Shown one piece after another: positions 15,525-25,774 of a stretch of DNA of 64,000 nt. Numbering within the stretch: position 1 is the first letter of the stretch; the number at the start of each line of letters is the position of its first letter. Origin of the DNA: Alcaligenaceae bacterium SAGV5. Lineage in GTDB: Bacteria > Pseudomonadota > Gammaproteobacteria > Burkholderiales > Burkholderiaceae_B. Under the pieces are notes generated by a model. The model searched no databases. It had not been told where the DNA came from and saw only the letters and a list, made by a program, of their open reading frames with translations. The translations under genes and the position numbers were made by a program. The stretch covers positions 248,001 through 312,000 of the forward strand of contig SPDP01000001.1 of NCBI GenBank assembly GCA_009360345.1. The letters are read 5' to 3'.

Positions 15525-16304
15525 TCAGGGCTGGTAGCCCAGTCGCGCCGACACGCCATCGGCGGCCTGGAGCACGGGCGTGACGAATCCGCGTACCGCT
15601 CGCTTGGTCAACCGCTGGATGGGACCCGCGACGCCGATCGCGGCGATGACCTGTCCGGAGTGATCACGCACCGGCGCCGCCAGCCCGCGCATGCCGACCT
15701 CGCTTTCCTCGTCGTCTTGCGCATAGCCTTCGCGGCGTACCTGTTCAAGCGTGCCGCGCAGCAGGGCCGGATCGGTCGGCGTGTTCGGCGTGCGCGGCAC
15801 GAGGCCATCCTTGAGCACGCGCGCCAGCACGTCCGCGCTCTGGAAGGCCAGCAGCGCGCGGCCTTCGCTGGTGCAGAACGCGGGCTTGCGCGCGCCGACG
15901 TACGAACGCATGCGTATGGCCTGGTGGCTTTCGAGGTTGAAGAGATAGATGATGTTGCTTTGCTCCAGCGTGGCCAGATGCACGGTCTCGCCGGTGATCT
16001 CGCGCAGCTCGTGCAGATAGGGCAGGGCCTGCGTCGAAATATCCATGCGCCGCCGCACCAGCGCGCCCAGCGCGAACAGCCCCAGCCCAAGCCGGTAGCG
16101 CCCGTTCTCCGGATTCTGCTCCAGCAGCCCCTCGGCCGTCAGCGTGCTGGCCAGCCGGTGCACCGTGCTCTTGGCCAGCCCCAGCCGTTTGGCAAGCGTA
16201 CTGATCCCGATCTCGACTTCCGTCTCGGAAAACACCTTGAGCACACGGATGGCCGAAGCAACCGAAGAAAGCCGCCCCTCGCCCCCGTCCTGAGTGTCTT
16301 GCAT
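15525..16304 (-). CDS. IclR-family transcriptional regulator
   Basis: This 259-aa IclR-type regulator has an N-terminal winged HTH (ISTLAKRLGLAKSTVHRLASTL, about residues 34-55) and a C-terminal ligand-binding domain (VHLATLEQ, RALLAFQ, GMRGLAAPV, AAIGVAGP). These proteins sense aromatic or short acids and act as repressors or activators of catabolic genes. The ATG at 16304 is chosen because the longer frame upstream runs into non-conserved sequence. It lies downstream of the Bug gene on the same strand and faces, across that gene, a Rieske oxygenase plus alcohol dehydrogenase; GTTCC/GGAAC palindromes in the divergent promoter region are likely targets. Confidence 0.9.
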   Translation of the reverse strand: MQDTQDGGEGRLSSVASAIRVLKVFSETEVEIGISTLAKRLGLAKSTVHRLASTLTAEGLLEQNPENGRYRLGLGLFALGALVRRRMDISTQALPYLHELREITGETVHLATLEQSNIIYLFNLESHQAIRMRSYVGARKPAFCTSEGRALLAFQSADVLARVLKDGLVPRTPNTPTDPALLRGTLEQVRREGYAQDDEESEVGMRGLAAPVRDHSGQVIAAIGVAGPIQRLTKRAVRGFVTPVLQAADGVSARLGYQP

Positions 16305-16401
16305 AGTGATGGACAATGTTTGCGTCAACCCACCTTTATAACAAGTGTTGGCAGCCAGCGAAGCACATGGGTACCACAATCCAAGAAACTGGCACCAGCC
16401 C

Positions 16402-17581: not shown

Positions 17582-18880
17582 ATGTTGAAGAAGGAACAGA
17601 ACGACCTGCTTACCCAGACGGGGCCGGGAACGCCCCTGGGCGAGCTGTTCCGCCGCTATTGGCAGCCGGTGATGCTCAGCCGCGAGCTGCCCGGGCCCGG
17701 CTGTGAGCCGGTGCGCGTCAAGCTGCTGTCCGAACGGCTGCTGGCGATACGCGACGAAGAAGACAACATCGGGCTGATCGACGAGTTCTGCGCGCATCGC
17801 GGGGTGTCGCTGTGGTTCGGCCGCTACGACGAGCAAGGCCAGGGCGGTGGCATCCGGTGTCCGTATCACGGCTGGAAGTACGCCGCCGATGGCCAATGCC
17901 TGGACGTGCCGTCGGAAGCGGAAGACAGCGGTTTTCGCAGCCGCATCAAACTCACCTCGTATCCGCTGGTCGAGCGCGGCGGCATCCTGTGGACCTACAT
18001 GGGTCCCCCCGAACATCAGCCGCCGCTGCCCGAGTACGAGTTCGCCATGGTGCCCGACGCGCAGCGCTTCGTGTCCAAGCGCATCCAGGAAAACAACTGG
18101 CTGCAGGCGCTGGAAGGCGGAATCGATTCCAGCCACGTTTCGTGGCTGCACCGCGACAGCCTGAAATCCGATCCCTTGTTCAAGGGCGCGGCCGGCAACC
18201 AGTACAACTTGACGGACCTGCGTCCGGTGTTCGACGTGGTGGACACCGACACCGGGCTGCTGGTGGGCGTGCGCCGCAACGCCGGCGACGACTCCTACTA
18301 CTGGCGCATCACGCCGTGGCTGATGCCTTGCTTCACCATGGTGCCGCCGCGCGGCGACCATCCCGTGCACGGACACTTCTGGGTGCCCATCGACGACGAG
18401 ACCTGCTGGGCCTGGAGCTTCGACTACCATGCGGGCCGCGCGCTGACCGAAGCCGAGGTCCAGGCGATGGAAGACGGGAAAGGAATACACGTGCGCTACG
18501 TGCCGGGCACGTTCCGTCCCTTGCAGAACAAGGAGAACGATTACCTGATGGACCGCGAGGCGCAGAAGTCGGGCAGGACTTTCAGCGGCATCGAGGGCAT
18601 AGGCATGCAGGATGCGTCGTTGCAGGAAAGCATGGGCCGGATCCAGGATCGCACCAAGGAACACCTGACCTCCACCGACAACGGCATCGTCAAGATGCGC
18701 CGCGCGTTGATGAAGGCCGTCAAGGCGCTGGCCGAGGAAGGCGCCGCGCCGCCGGGAACGCATCCGTCGACGCACCATGTCCGCTCGGCCGCGGTGATCC
18801 TGCCGCGCGACCAGCACTTCAAGGATGCCGCCGCCGACGCGCTTGCCGCGCAGCCGGGCCGGCCGCACGCGTCGGTGTGA
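17582..18880 (+). CDS. Rieske non-heme iron oxygenase, alpha subunit (phthalate dioxygenase type)
   Basis: This 432-aa oxygenase of the phthalate-4,5-dioxygenase-like group (alpha subunit only) hydroxylates or demethylates an aromatic acid. The Rieske [2Fe-2S] ligands are C70-H72 and C93-H96 (CAHRG and CPYHGW), and the mononuclear iron site shows D182, H185 and H190 in IDSSHVSWLH. GAGGGG before the ATG at 17582 fixes the start. It is followed after five bases by an alcohol dehydrogenase, so the two are co-transcribed, and is divergent from a Bug protein. No reductase gene is adjacent; electrons must come from a partner encoded elsewhere. The substrate is unknown, but a methoxy- or carboxy-aromatic acid is plausible. 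Confidence 0.92.
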   Translation: MLKKEQNDLLTQTGPGTPLGELFRRYWQPVMLSRELPGPGCEPVRVKLLSERLLAIRDEEDNIGLIDEFCAHRGVSLWFGRYDEQGQGGGIRCPYHGWKYAADGQCLDVPSEAEDSGFRSRIKLTSYPLVERGGILWTYMGPPEHQPPLPEYEFAMVPDAQRFVSKRIQENNWLQALEGGIDSSHVSWLHRDSLKSDPLFKGAAGNQYNLTDLRPVFDVVDTDTGLLVGVRRNAGDDSYYWRITPWLMPCFTMVPPRGDHPVHGHFWVPIDDETCWAWSFDYHAGRALTEAEVQAMEDGKGIHVRYVPGTFRPLQNKENDYLMDREAQKSGRTFSGIEGIGMQDASLQESMGRIQDRTKEHLTSTDNGIVKMRRALMKAVKALAEEGAAPPGTHPSTHHVRSAAVILPRDQHFKDAAADALAAQPGRPHASV

Positions 18881-20036: not shown

Positions 20037-20081
20037 GCCATGGCCCTTCGACGCGGTAGCGCCGCAGCGAAGGGCCATGGC
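20037..20081 (+). terminator. terminator-like hairpin after alcohol dehydrogenase
   Basis: Perfect 14-bp arms GCCATGGCCCTTCG (20037-20050) and CGAAGGGCCATGGC (20068-20081) enclose a 17-nt loop and are followed by a weak T stretch (TTGCCGTTTTC). Confidence 0.65.
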
Positions 20082-20100: not shown

Positions 20101-20129
20101 TTGACACCCGGGCATGTGAATCTCATACT
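20101..20129 (+). promoter_or_regulatory. promoter of second Rieske/Bug operon
   Basis: TTGACA (20101-20106) and CATACT (20124-20129) are 17 bp apart. The -10 box overlaps the left arm of a large palindrome, which suggests control by a bound repressor. Confidence 0.6.
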
Positions 20130-20165
20130 GGCCAAATACTAGCGAATCGCTAGCATTTGGCCAGT
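20127..20165. promoter_or_regulatory. 39-bp near-perfect palindromic operator
   Basis: The left arm ACTGGCCAAATACTAGCGA and the reverse complement of the right arm differ at one of 19 positions, with a single base in the centre. Inside it are TTTGGCCA-type and CGCTAGC-type half sites, each repeated symmetrically. It covers the -10 box and probable start of a promoter. The regulator is not proven; the MarR protein encoded at the end of this cassette is a candidate. Confidence 0.75.
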
Positions 20166-20226: not shown

Positions 20227-21486
20227 ATGCTCAGCCTCGAAATGAATCGCATGCTTACCCGGGTGGAGAAGGGCGCGCCCATGGGGAATCTCATCGGCCG
20301 GTTCTGGATGCCGGCGCTGCTGTCGGAGGAAATCGCCGAGCCGGACGGCCCGCCGGTGCGTGTCGGCCTGCTCGGCCACCGGCTGGTGGCGTTCCGCGAC
20401 TCGGAGGGCCGGGTCGGGCTGCTGGACGCGCGCTGCCCGCATCGTTCGGTCGACCTGTTCTTCGGCCGCAATGAACAGGGCGGATTGCGCTGCGTCTACC
20501 ACGGCTGGAAGTTCGGCGTGGACGGCGCCTGCGTCGACATGCCCAGCGAGCCCCCATCCAGCCCGATGAAGGCCAAGGTGCGCGCGCGGGCGTATCCCGT
20601 GCATGAATCCGGCGGCATCATCTGGGCCTATCTCGGTCCCGGCGAAGCGCCCGCCGTGCCCGACATCGAATTCATGTCGCTGCCGGAAAGCCACGTCTAT
20701 GCATCGAAACGTTTGATGCGTTGCAACTACATGCAGGCGCTGGAAGGCAGCCTGGATACCTCTCATCTGACTTTCCTGCACCAGATGAACCGCATGTCCA
20801 AGGATGTGTTCGGCGTGGGAGACTTCCAGCGCTTCTCCGACGCCGATGGCGCGCCGCGTTTCTTTTGTGCCGATACCTCCTACGGCATGTCCATCTCGGC
20901 GCGCCGCGACGGCGACGACGACACCTACTACTGGCGCGTCACGCAGTGGCTGATGCCGGTCGGCGTCCTGGTGCCGACCGCGCCGGGGAATGTATGCCGC
21001 GCCAATTTCTTCGTTCCGATCGACGACCGGAACTGCTGGTGGTACCGGATCCGCTACCAGCCGGAACGGCCGCTCGAACAGGGGGAAATCGAGGAGTACG
21101 ACGCCGGCGACCTCGACTATTCACGCCGCGTGCCGGGCACCTATGAATCGATGGGCAACCAGGAGAACGACTACCTGATCGATCGCGGCAAGCAGCGCAC
21201 CGAATCCTTCACCGGCATTCCCAGCGCCCAGCTGCAGGACATCGCCGTGCAGGAAAGCCAGGGCGAGATCGCCGACCGCAGCATCGAGCACCTCGGGACG
21301 TCCGACACCGCCATTGCCCAGACCCGGCGCAGGTTGATCAATGCCGCCCAGGCGCTCGAGGAAGGGCACTCGCCGCAGGAAGCCCGTGCCGCCTCGCAAT
21401 ACCGCATACGCGCCATCGCCATCGCGCTGAACCGATCCAGGACTTTCGACGAAGCCGCCGCGTTGGCGCATCTGCCGCCGGCATAG
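20227..21486 (+). CDS. Rieske non-heme iron oxygenase, alpha subunit (phthalate dioxygenase type)
   Basis: This 419-aa alpha-only oxygenase is homologous to the one at 17582 and carries Rieske ligands C70-H72 and C89-H92, and iron ligands D177, H180, H185 in LDTSHLTFLH. AGGAGG before the ATG at 20227 sets the start. The two paralogues share the ALEG block and the PGT-NQENDYLIDR region near the C-terminus, but differ enough to suggest different substrates. It is followed after 21 bp by a Bug protein and preceded by a promoter with a 39-bp palindrome. Again no reductase gene is next to it. Confidence 0.92.
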   Translation: MLSLEMNRMLTRVEKGAPMGNLIGRFWMPALLSEEIAEPDGPPVRVGLLGHRLVAFRDSEGRVGLLDARCPHRSVDLFFGRNEQGGLRCVYHGWKFGVDGACVDMPSEPPSSPMKAKVRARAYPVHESGGIIWAYLGPGEAPAVPDIEFMSLPESHVYASKRLMRCNYMQALEGSLDTSHLTFLHQMNRMSKDVFGVGDFQRFSDADGAPRFFCADTSYGMSISARRDGDDDTYYWRVTQWLMPVGVLVPTAPGNVCRANFFVPIDDRNCWWYRIRYQPERPLEQGEIEEYDAGDLDYSRRVPGTYESMGNQENDYLIDRGKQRTESFTGIPSAQLQDIAVQESQGEIADRSIEHLGTSDTAIAQTRRRLINAAQALEEGHSPQEARAASQYRIRAIAIALNRSRTFDEAAALAHLPPA

Positions 21487-21507: not shown

Positions 21508-22509
21508 ATGAATCTCACGACGACAAGCGCCATCAGGCATCTGGTCCTGGCGGCCGCCCTTGGCACCGCCGGCCTGCTCCCGCAGGGAGTCTGTGCGCAG
21601 GAAGCTTCCTGGCCCACCCGTTCCGTCCGGGTGATCGTGCCCTTTCTGGCGGGAGGGTCGATCGACGTCGTGGCCCGCACGCTGGCGGCCGAGCTTTCGG
21701 CCCGCTATCACCAGCAGTTCGTGGTGGACAACAAGGCCGGCGCCGGCGGCACCATCGGCACGGACTTCGTGGCCAAGAGCGCGGCGGATGGCTACACGCT
21801 GCTGCTTACCGCCCAGGGGCCGCTGGTGATCAACCCGTTCATCATGTCCAAGCTGCCCTACGACGCGCAGCATGCCTTCGCGCCGGTGTCGCGGGTGGTC
21901 GATGCGCCCAACGTACTGGTGGCCTCGCCCAAGGCCGGACTGCCGACGTTCGAGGCCTTCCTGCAGCGGGCGCGGTCGGGCGGCGCGCCGCTGACCTACG
22001 CTACCCAGGGCGTGGGCACCACGGGCCACGTCACCGGGGCGCTGCTGGACCAGGCGCTGAACATTTCGTTGACGCACGTGCCGTACAACGGCTTTCCTCC
22101 CATACTGACCGACGTCATGCAGGGCCGCGTCGATCTGATGATCGCCGACACCGTCAACGTGGGGGAGCGGGTCCGGACGGGCCAGCTGGCCGCCGTTGCC
22201 GTGGCCTCGGCCCGGCGCAGTTCGGTGTTGCCCGAGGTGCCGACCTTCGCGGAAAAAGGCTATCCCGAGATCGTGGCGGGTCCGTGGTTCGCCCTGCTGG
22301 CCCCAGCGGGCACGTCCAGGGCGGTGCGCGACAAGCTCTCGGCCACGGTCAAGGAAATCCTGGCCAAACCCGACATCGCCGCTCGCTTCCAGGGCATGGG
22401 GCTGGACATCGTTGGCTCGACCCCGGACGATCTGCAAAGCTATATGGACAAGGAATACGCCCGCTGGGGCGCGATCATCCGCAAGGCCGGCATACAGGCG
22501 GCTTCCTGA
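21508..22509 (+). CDS. Bug-family substrate-binding protein
   Basis: This 333-aa periplasmic binding protein has a signal peptide (LVLAAALGTAGLLPQGVCA), PTRSVRVIVPFLAGGSID, FVVDNKAGAGGTIG, DGYTLLLTAQG and the HVPYNGFPPILTD block. It is the second gene of a Rieske oxygenase operon and presumably captures the substrate or an analogue of that oxygenase. It ends 12 bp from a convergent MarR gene. It lacks a linked TctAB pair. Confidence 0.92.
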   Translation: MNLTTTSAIRHLVLAAALGTAGLLPQGVCAQEASWPTRSVRVIVPFLAGGSIDVVARTLAAELSARYHQQFVVDNKAGAGGTIGTDFVAKSAADGYTLLLTAQGPLVINPFIMSKLPYDAQHAFAPVSRVVDAPNVLVASPKAGLPTFEAFLQRARSGGAPLTYATQGVGTTGHVTGALLDQALNISLTHVPYNGFPPILTDVMQGRVDLMIADTVNVGERVRTGQLAAVAVASARRSSVLPEVPTFAEKGYPEIVAGPWFALLAPAGTSRAVRDKLSATVKEILAKPDIAARFQGMGLDIVGSTPDDLQSYMDKEYARWGAIIRKAGIQAAS

Positions 22510-22521
22510 ACCGCCGCGCGG

Positions 22522-23016
22522 TCAGTCGGCGAAGTCTTTCCAGGTCCGGGGAGACTTCAGCCGATCCGAGGCCGTGGCCGCCAGCTTGCCCAGCGTTTCC
22601 CGGATGCGGCGCTCTTCCCCCTCGCCCATCGCGCCCAACACGTCGTGTTCCAGGGCGCTCATCACACGCTCCACGTCGATGCGCGCCCGCTCGCCCGCCG
22701 CGGTCAGCCGCAGCACGGAACGCCGGCGATCGCGCGAGTCGACGCCCTTGGTCATATAGCCTTGCCGGGTGAGTTGCACGATGGCCCGCGAGACGAAGAA
22801 GGCGTCCGTGCTCGTGTGTTCCGCTACTTCCTTGGCCGATAGCGGACCGAAGCGTCCAACCACCGCCATCACGCGCCATGTGATGGTCGTCAGGCCGTAC
22901 TTTTCTTCCCACATGGGAGCCAGGAACTGCGAGATGCGCGTCGCGATCATCAGCGCCTGATAGGCGATGCGGTGCTCGAGGGGGACGGTCGGATCGGGCG
23001 GAGTCTTCTTCGGCAT
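22522..23016 (-). CDS. MarR-family transcriptional regulator
   Basis: This 164-aa MarR-type winged-helix protein shows LTTITWRVMAVVGRFGPLSAKEVAEH, the recognition region DAFFVSRAIVQLTRQGYM, and the wing DSRDRRRSVLRLTAAGE. The ATG at 23016 gives the normal family length. It converges with the Rieske-Bug operon and is therefore a good candidate to bind the 39-bp palindrome at its promoter, although it could also regulate unlinked genes. A DUF202 gene lies nine bases upstream on the same strand. Confidence 0.87.
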   Translation of the reverse strand: MPKKTPPDPTVPLEHRIAYQALMIATRISQFLAPMWEEKYGLTTITWRVMAVVGRFGPLSAKEVAEHTSTDAFFVSRAIVQLTRQGYMTKGVDSRDRRRSVLRLTAAGERARIDVERVMSALEHDVLGAMGEGEERRIRETLGKLAATASDRLKSPRTWKDFAD

Positions 23017-23024
23017 GGTCGATC

Positions 23025-23333
23025 CTAGCTCAGCACCAGCCAGGTCCCGGCCAGGCTCGTGATCGCCACCAGCGCGGTGATGCCCGCCATCCACGCCGAC
23101 GAGGCGGCGTGGATCTTGTCCAGGGCGAGCGCCGACCGGCGCCATGACGCGGTCGCGAAGAACAGGATGGCGCACAGCATGTCCAGCGCGCCGACGACGA
23201 GGAAGACCGGTTGGTGTTCCTGTATGCCCGCCCGCAGTACCAGCAGCGCCACGGCTGTCATCGACAGGCCGGTCCGACCCCAGGACAGCGCGGTGCGTTG
23301 GGGCTGCAACCCCGGATCCAGTTGCGAACTCAT
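23025..23333 (-). CDS. DUF202-family small membrane protein
   Basis: This 102-aa protein has three hydrophobic segments and the N-terminal RTALSWGRTGLSM segment typical of DUF202 proteins related to E. coli YidG. The function is unknown. Its ATG overlaps the stop of the preceding gene by four bases, so the two are translated together. In E. coli YidG and YidH form a similar pair. Confidence 0.75.
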   Translation of the reverse strand: MSSQLDPGLQPQRTALSWGRTGLSMTAVALLVLRAGIQEHQPVFLVVGALDMLCAILFFATASWRRSALALDKIHAASSAWMAGITALVAITSLAGTWLVLS

Positions 23334-23671
23334 CGGAACAGCACGAACAGGCCGGCCACCACGGCGACCAGTATCGTCACGCCGGCCGCCAGCGGAATCA
23401 GCGCCGAGCGCGGCAGCGGCCGCGAGTGCCGCATGGCCTGCTGGTTGGCTTTCCACTGGAAATAGGCGCCGCAGCAGAAGATCAGGCCGGCGACGGTCAT
23501 CGCCACGCTCAGCGCCAGCAGCGGCCAATGCGGCTGGACCACGCCGCCGAACTGGTGGAGCAGGATGGCGCCGGCCAGCACGGCAAGCGCGGTGCGTATC
23601 CAGGCGAGGAAGGTGCGTTCGTTGGCCAGCGTGAAACGGTAGTCGGGTTCGCGGCCGTCATCCTCTTGCAT
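23330..23671 (-). CDS. YidH/DUF202-family membrane protein
   Basis: This 113-aa protein carries the DUF202 signature RFTLANERTFLAWIRTALA followed by three membrane helices, resembling E. coli YidH. Its start at 23671 is set by AGGAG about nine bases upstream. It is the first gene of a coupled pair with the smaller DUF202 protein. No function is established for the family; its place between a Rieske cassette and an aldo/keto reductase gives no clue. Confidence 0.8.
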   Translation of the reverse strand: MQEDDGREPDYRFTLANERTFLAWIRTALAVLAGAILLHQFGGVVQPHWPLLALSVAMTVAGLIFCCGAYFQWKANQQAMRHSRPLPRSALIPLAAGVTILVAVVAGLFVLFR

Positions 23672-23803
23672 GCGAGAGTTCTCCTGAGGCGTTTCTTTCA
23701 AGGTCGAGCGCTATTTTAGGCTTCCCCGGGCCGGGATTCATGCCGCCGCCGGTGGGCTTGCAGTAACCTTGGACCGGATATCACCCGCAACCGGAGCACA
23801 GAC

Positions 23804-24868: not shown

Positions 24869-25774
24869 CTATCTCGATTCCTTGAACAGCCGGATGACCA
24901 GGTCACGCATCCACTGGTGCGCGGGGTCGAGTTCGAACCGCTTGCTCCAGTGGAGCATGACGGGAAAATCCCCGTGGGCGAACTGGGCCTCGCTTACCGC
25001 GTAGCCGCCCGAGTCGGCAAAGTAGTTCGCCAGCCCCATCGGCAGTACCACGGCCAGGTCCGTGGTCTTCACGATGGCTGGCAAGGCCAGGAAGTTCGAC
25101 GAGGTGATCCGGATCTTCTTGTCGATGCCCATTTCCTGCAGGACCCGCACCGTGTCCCCGTAGGCGCGTATCGCGACGTAGTCCAGGCGGCCCAGTTGTT
25201 CCCGCGTCAGCCCCCCGTCGCCTTGCCCGAGCAGGGCCGGGTGTCCCGCCCGCAGAAAGACGGAATACCTGTCGCGCACCAGTTCCAGGCTCTGGGTGCC
25301 CACCAGGTCCGGGATGAACCCGAGCGCCAGATCGACGATGCCCGCATCCAGCGACGCGCAGATCGCGTCGTGCGGCAATGCGCAACTGTCCACCGTGACG
25401 CCGGGGGCCTCCTTTCTCAGCGTCTCGATCAGCCTGGGCAGGAAGAGCGCCTCGCCGATGTCGTTCAGGTGGAGCCGAAGCCGCATCCGCGATGTCGACG
25501 GCTCGAATTGCTCGCCCTCGTTGAGGGCGGCTTCGATCATGGCGATCGCTCCCTGGACGGCGTGCGCCAGGCGGGCGCCGCGCAGCGTCGGCCGCACGCC
25601 GCCGGGCGCGCGCACGAACAGGGGGTCTCCCAGGCTGACGCGCAGCCGGGTCAGCCCCTGGCTTGCCGCCGGTTGCGACAGGTTCAGCGCATCGGCCGCG
25701 CGGCTCACGCTGCCGGATCGGTAGATGGCGTCGAACAGCCGCAGCAAATTGAGATCGATGTCTCGTATATCCAT
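24869..25774 (-). CDS. LysR-family transcriptional regulator
   Basis: This 301-aa LysR regulator has the N-terminal HTH (DLNLLRLFDAIYRSGSVSRAADALNLSQPA, split here by the turn) and a substrate-binding domain of the NodD/LeuO-like subgroup (SLDAGIVDLALGF). It is divergent from a three-gene operon of an M29-like enzyme, a lactonase-like protein and a Bug protein, and so is their likely activator. The intergenic region contains short inverted motifs such as ATCC-ATG-GGAT, but no single site stands out. Confidence 0.9.
   Translation of the reverse strand: MDIRDIDLNLLRLFDAIYRSGSVSRAADALNLSQPAASQGLTRLRVSLGDPLFVRAPGGVRPTLRGARLAHAVQGAIAMIEAALNEGEQFEPSTSRMRLRLHLNDIGEALFLPRLIETLRKEAPGVTVDSCALPHDAICASLDAGIVDLALGFIPDLVGTQSLELVRDRYSVFLRAGHPALLGQGDGGLTREQLGRLDYVAIRAYGDTVRVLQEMGIDKKIRITSSNFLALPAIVKTTDLAVVLPMGLANYFADSGGYAVSEAQFAHGDFPVMLHWSKRFELDPAHQWMRDLVIRLFKESR

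Follow-up and report, generated by a model that had tools for sequence, protein, structure and literature searches.

A 39-bp palindrome at the promoter of a Rieske-Bug operon, proposed operator of the MarR-family regulator of the same cassette in Pigmentiphaga

Overview

We have analyzed a 39-bp near-perfect palindrome located at the promoter of an operon that encodes a Rieske oxygenase and a Bug-type solute-binding protein (the Rieske-Bug operon). The palindrome is a real feature and very probably a functional one. On the basis of sequence comparisons we consider it likely to be the operator of the cassette's own MarR-family protein (22522-23016), the proposed repressor of the operon. The window, that is the whole stretch of 64,000 nt analyzed here, belongs to a Pigmentiphaga-type bacterium, and the operon is found in three other Pigmentiphaga genomes, designated G003 (locus L034/L115), G004 and G007. 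The elements discussed below are listed in window coordinates.

20101-20106, plus strand: -35 box TTGACA, found by consensus scan; TTGACA also precedes the core in 12 of 12 loci that carry it
20124-20129, plus strand: -10 box CATACT (TATACT in G003), 17-nt spacer, found by consensus scan and in orthologues
20125-20146, plus strand: possible 11-bp tandem duplication ATACTGGCCAA / ATACTAGCGAA, matching at 9 of 11 positions in the window
20127-20165, no strand: 39-bp palindrome, the proposed MarR operator in its extended form (palindrome scans, shuffles, orthologues)
20127-20133, no strand: left outer arm (pairs 13-19 from the center), Pigmentiphaga only
20134-20158, no strand: inner 25-bp core AAATACTAGCGA-A-TCGCTAGCATTT, partly kept in distant cassettes (cross-locus comparison)
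20159-20165, no strand: right outer arm, mirroring the left one
20227-21486, plus strand: Rieske oxygenase alpha subunit (Rieske and LigXa_C domains), first gene of the operon
21508-22509, plus strand: Bug/TctC-type solute-binding protein, second gene of the operon
22522-23016, minus strand: MarR-family regulator of 164 aa (ATG start), transcribed towards the operon; candidate for the protein that binds the palindrome

Palindrome and promoter layout

The palindrome, ACTGGCCAAATACTAGCGA-A-TCGCTAGCATTTGGCCAGT, has arms at 20127-20145 and 20147-20165 that are complementary at 18 of 19 pairs and flank a 1-bp center, exactly as the initial annotation had described it. That annotation also held the repeat to be far longer than chance, and the scans agree. 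With a score defined as arm length minus twice the number of mismatches, the palindrome ranks first in the window (17, against 12 for the runner-up) when loops of up to 3 nt and one mismatch are allowed. A looser scan (loops up to 8 nt, two mismatches) still places it at the top, with an inverted repeat at 20037-20081 close behind at 16. The best scores reached by chance were 13 among 40 first-order Markov copies of the window and 10 among 2000 mononucleotide shuffles of the 231-nt intergenic region. The 21-bp core of the palindrome occurs a single time in the genome with up to three mismatches allowed, so that a larger regulon is unsupported.

The palindrome lies at the core promoter of the neighboring operon. 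TTGACA-N17-CATACT is the sole sigma-70-like match between 19900 and 20300, with 10 of 12 consensus matches (the mean for shuffles was 0.0). The initial annotation had identified this promoter correctly, but its statement that the palindrome covers the -10 box has to be narrowed: the overlap comprises the last three bases of the box only (20127-20129), and most of the palindrome is situated over the expected start site and the early transcribed region.

Genes of the cassette and its surroundings

Two DUF202 genes precede the MarR gene on the same strand (22522-23701, minus). The nearer of them stops 8 bases before the MarR start codon, and the DUF202 and MarR genes may be co-transcribed. No second copy of the operator was found before the Pigmentiphaga MarR gene, and there is thus no sign of autoregulation through the palindrome site.

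The Rieske family is large in this genus: 30 matches to the Rieske query were listed for the window's genome, and the window itself has two neighboring paralogous alpha subunit genes (17582-18841 and 20227-21486) that are 43% identical. A different palindrome, AGGAACAnnGTTCCT, lies about 50 nt upstream of paralogous Rieske genes at two loci of genus genomes (L010 and L011) and may be bound by a different regulator. Between the upstream gene and the Rieske promoter of the window, the inverted repeat at 20037-20081 has 20-bp arms that are 90% complementary, a 5-nt loop and a T-rich stretch behind it; it can be aligned in all four Pigmentiphaga genomes, with 22-bp arms in G007. This repeat is probably the terminator of the upstream operon, although a simple terminator scan left its full stem unreported.

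Conservation within Pigmentiphaga

The initial annotation had proposed a search of orthologous cassettes for the palindrome and had counted lack of conservation among the grounds for abandoning it. The palindrome is in fact kept in all three of the other Pigmentiphaga genomes found to carry the operon, and in G004 and G007 it is perfect (19 + 19). Among 11 genomes of the genus, the palindrome core without mismatches, the MarR protein at 95% identity or more and the Rieske protein at 92% identity or more occur in the same four. A reversed control pattern also matched 3 of the 11 genomes when three mismatches were allowed; the true core matches have none.

The Rieske genes of these four genomes differ by 4.5-9.4% of their bases. 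The palindromes of the window and G003 differ at seven positions, six of which are mirrored. In G003, GATC replaces GGCC in both arms, and the inner 25 bp read exactly as the reverse complement of window positions 20134-20158, the outcome expected of an inversion in place. Pair +/-8 is mismatched in both genomes, and just two pairs (+/-14 and +/-15) are truly compensated. By Rieske DNA identity (0.906-0.911) no other genome of the four is as distant as G003, so that these changes may have gone in either direction.

Related cassettes in distant hosts

We compared 84 distinct Rieske loci, consisting of 78 from the best 80 matches listed for the Rieske protein against GTDB contigs, three plasmids (pAKD15, Hydrogenophaga pBPS33-1 and a Variovorax plasmid), and one locus each from G004, G007 and the window, after removal of the duplicate places L114 and L115. 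Among these listed matches and added loci, 12 of the 84 have the core AATAnTAGCGAAnCGCnAGTAnTT (0-2 mismatches) no more than 200 nt ahead of the Rieske gene. The site is conserved together with the putative regulator: the core is present in 12 of 12 loci that have the MarR protein (at least 139 bits) and in 0 of 72 that do not, although this coincidence is confounded with Rieske kinship, since the core-bearing loci have Rieske identities of at least 62% and all others of at most 48%. In the 72 loci lacking the core the best match to it has 8-12 mismatches, and a MarR match is absent or, in five loci, weak (at most 88.6 bits). The low mismatch counts at the core-bearing loci arise partly by construction, as the 24-mer pattern was derived from these loci. 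In a check that uses no pattern, the best ungapped 24-mer between the 130 nt preceding the window's Rieske gene and the corresponding region of pAKD15 or pBPS33-1 matched at 19 of 24 positions. This 24-mer is the core itself for pAKD15 and a stretch overlapping most of the core for pBPS33-1; none of 100 shuffles reached 19 for either plasmid (maximum 17).

Eight of the core-bearing loci are distant ones, with Rieske proteins 62-64% identical to that of the window and the core behind a -35 box of their own. They come from Caenimonas, Ramlibacter, Ottowia, Hydrogenophaga and plasmid pAKD15. They represent about three promoter types that are identical within each type (L035/L036; L037, L038, L040 and L112; L039/L113). 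Caenimonas koreensis (L035) and Ramlibacter albus (L036) have, as printed, an identical 350-nt region upstream of the Rieske gene, which points to a recent transfer of the cassette between genera. The cassettes of pAKD15 and pBPS33-1 contain the same three genes as the window, with aligned MarR proteins 47-48% identical and the core behind TTGACA. Where they differ is in the layout of the site. The dyad center is 39 nt from the end of the -35 box in the four Pigmentiphaga genomes and 28 nt in the eight distant loci, both plasmids included, and thus 11 bp farther in Pigmentiphaga. The -10 sequence AATAAT falls within the core in the distant loci; in Pigmentiphaga the -10 position is occupied by CATACT or TATACT. 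Symmetry is incomplete in the distant sites, extending to 7-8 of 12 inner pairs, and the outer arms are lacking: pairs 13-19 are symmetric at 7 of 7 in Pigmentiphaga and at 0-2 of 7 in the relatives.

In the four Pigmentiphaga loci, L035-L038, L040 and pAKD15 the MarR gene follows the Rieske gene on the other strand. In pBPS33-1 and L039 the two genes are divergent, with the core in the space that separates them. The pBPS33-1 cassette is situated between IS1071 transposase genes, with MarR as the sole regulator among the annotated features listed. This plasmid is described as an unclassified megaplasmid (PMC7039861); in the available part of that source the terms tried gave no mention of the Rieske-Bug-MarR cassette. 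Literal core strings, searched in the literature, returned nothing beyond a match concerning CRISPR antimicrobials. The suggestion in the initial annotation that the MarR gene of the cassette is a candidate for the binding protein gains support from the co-occurrence within the genus, from the core in distant MarR cassettes and from the two divergent loci.

The MarR protein

The protein encoded at 22522-23016 matches PF12802 (MarR_2) at 7.3e-10 with 39.3 bits, above the cut-off of 27, and PF01047 (MarR) with 21 bits, under the cut-off of 24.6; none of the NCBIfam equivalog cut-offs, that of HpaR included, was reached. An AlphaFold model (mean pLDDT 82, pTM 0.66) predicts a recognition helix (72-84) and a beta-wing (88-104) in the recognition region. 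Foldseek listed 50 matches to this model, all with a probability of 1.00 and with moderate query TM-scores of 0.44-0.68. Among them are MarR, MepR, FabT, PcaV, MftR and HpaR, some with DNA, as well as ligand-bound PcaV and a Variovorax MarR in complex with benzoic or salicylic acid. The Pfam, PDB sequence and structure searches agree on the assignment to the MarR family.

The recognition-helix segment TSTDAFFVxRAI is identical in the 10 aligned MarR proteins of the 12 core-bearing loci (L036 and L040 were left out). It differs in the MarR proteins of L055 and L060, which are 39% identical and come from loci without the core (TSSDPFRVVRAI), and also in 30 more distant MarR matches (27-40% identity, loci L125-L154). 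No convincing core was found at these 30 loci, the one 13-mer with a single mismatch being at L136. Searches for the MarR protein itself, which scored up to 13 candidates per genome and may therefore have missed some, found it in 1 of 399 genomes of the order at 1e-20, this being the window's own. At 1e-15 there were 14 matches in 268 genomes of the family, of which only those of the four Pigmentiphaga reach 95% identity (the next is at 38%), and 28 in 398 genomes of the phylum, at most 36% identical besides the window's own.

Proposed mechanism and comparison with known systems

In the mechanism that we propose, a MarR dimer would bind the inner dyad TAGCGA-N-TCGCTA with its AT-rich flanks, spanning the start site and extending towards the -10 box. 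Bound in this manner, MarR would block initiation of the Rieske-Bug operon; an aromatic substrate or intermediate would then bind MarR and release it, lifting the block. The palindrome, the promoter-like sequence, the conservation of the site, its co-occurrence with this MarR and the 11-bp offset are observed, whereas we infer MarR binding, repression, the ligand and the route by which the site was lengthened; an aromatic acid is suggested as the inducer because of the oxygenase and the MarR relatives.

CbaR on cbaABC and HpaR are MarR-family operator systems of aromatic-catabolic operons. Like them, the present system has a palindrome at a catabolic promoter and a MarR gene in the cluster; its palindrome, however, measures 39 bp instead of the usual 16-20 bp. 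According to a published account, most MarR proteins are homodimers that bind palindromes of 16-20 bp and repress through overlap with the -10 or -35 box (PMC12016517). Since MarR sites are usually of this size and position, the core is ordinary, and the unusual point is the overall length. The part common to relatives is about 13-25 bp, and the inner 25 bp or so, which are partly common to them, would suit one dimer.

The same account describes BhbR2 of Pigmentiphaga kullae H8 as binding TTGATT-N5-AATCAA at -22 to -43 and activating transcription (PMC12016517). BhbR2 resembles the present protein in genus, family, palindromic site and aromatic-catabolic promoter. It activates, however, whereas for TAGCGA-N-TCGCTA, located around the expected start, repression is expected and fits better than activation.

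Alternative explanations

The strongest competing account leaves the core as an operator, and is to that extent compatible with our explanation, but takes the outer arms and the near-perfect symmetry to be by-products of template switching or hairpin-mediated inversion in replication, unselected for binding. We see this as a credible possibility that stops somewhat short of being probable. A single inversion suffices to explain the inner 25 bp of G003, and the symmetry of the outer pairs is confined to Pigmentiphaga, as such an origin would allow; three separate substitutions, however, account for the inner differences nearly as well, and the symmetry has been maintained over four genomes despite the divergence of their Rieske genes. 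The initial annotation had suggested that the palindrome could bind two dimers; the outer arms may be the site of a further dimer or a relic of template switching.

It is unlikely that the palindrome is the operator of another regulator of the GntR, LysR, IclR or TetR type, encoded nearby or elsewhere, with MarR acting at some other place. Candidates do exist: IclR (15525-16379) and LysR (24869-25774) genes lie within 6 kb of the palindrome, pAKD15 encodes a GntR protein some 3 kb upstream as well as one more 'transcriptional regulator', and the Pigmentiphaga MarR gene is convergent, not divergent. Against them stand the coincidence of core and MarR presence and the pBPS33-1 cassette, which keeps the core and has MarR as its one listed regulator, although its gene table may be incomplete. 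On the latter ground the GntR- or LysR-type protein that the initial annotation had entertained is disfavored and is retained as a low-ranked rival.

Very improbable is an RNA element, in which the transcript would start inside the palindrome and carry a 5' stem-loop that stabilizes the mRNA or affects translation. From an assumed +1 at 20136 the inner arms could form a 5' hairpin of nine pairs in G003, G004 and G007 and of five pairs in the window. The left outer arm, however, is upstream of this +1, so that the RNA does not contain the full palindrome, whose symmetry is kept nonetheless; in the eight distant loci the assumed +1 is behind the left half of the core and the hairpin cannot form. 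Finally, a transcription terminator or a chance inverted repeat has hardly any probability, for although inter-operon hairpins are common and a strong one lies just upstream (20037-20081), the site is conserved and on a promoter, no T-run follows it, the terminator scan reports none there, and the shuffles exclude chance.

Operator evolution and significance

Under the MarR operator reading, the Pigmentiphaga site would have been lengthened to 39 bp; it is 11 bp, or one helical turn, farther from the -35 box than the sites of the relatives. ATACTGGCCAA followed by ATACTAGCGAA matches at 9 of 11 positions in three of the four Pigmentiphaga genomes and at 5 of 11 in G003, so that a simple duplication is disfavored in that genome; at a period of 11, 13 of 63978 positions in the window score at least 9 of 11. 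The arrangement suggests a possible 11-bp duplication that left the -10 box where it was and shifted the operator by one turn. A bolder version, which we hold to be doubtful, is that the duplication produced a four-half-site MarR operator whose mirrored extra half-sites recruit further MarR dimers cooperatively. If true, this would show in legible form how a bacterial operator can move and double while its promoter stays intact, and the palindrome itself would be turning over by inversion and two-arm conversion.

The proposed operator would connect a MarR protein of no known role both with a defined DNA motif and with a Rieske-Bug cassette that occurs on an IncP plasmid as well as flanked by IS1071 transposase genes. 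A single promoter would thus give access to the regulator, to its ligand and to the oxygenase substrate, and the 11-bp operator shift with its apparent duplication may serve as a small, testable example of operator evolution.
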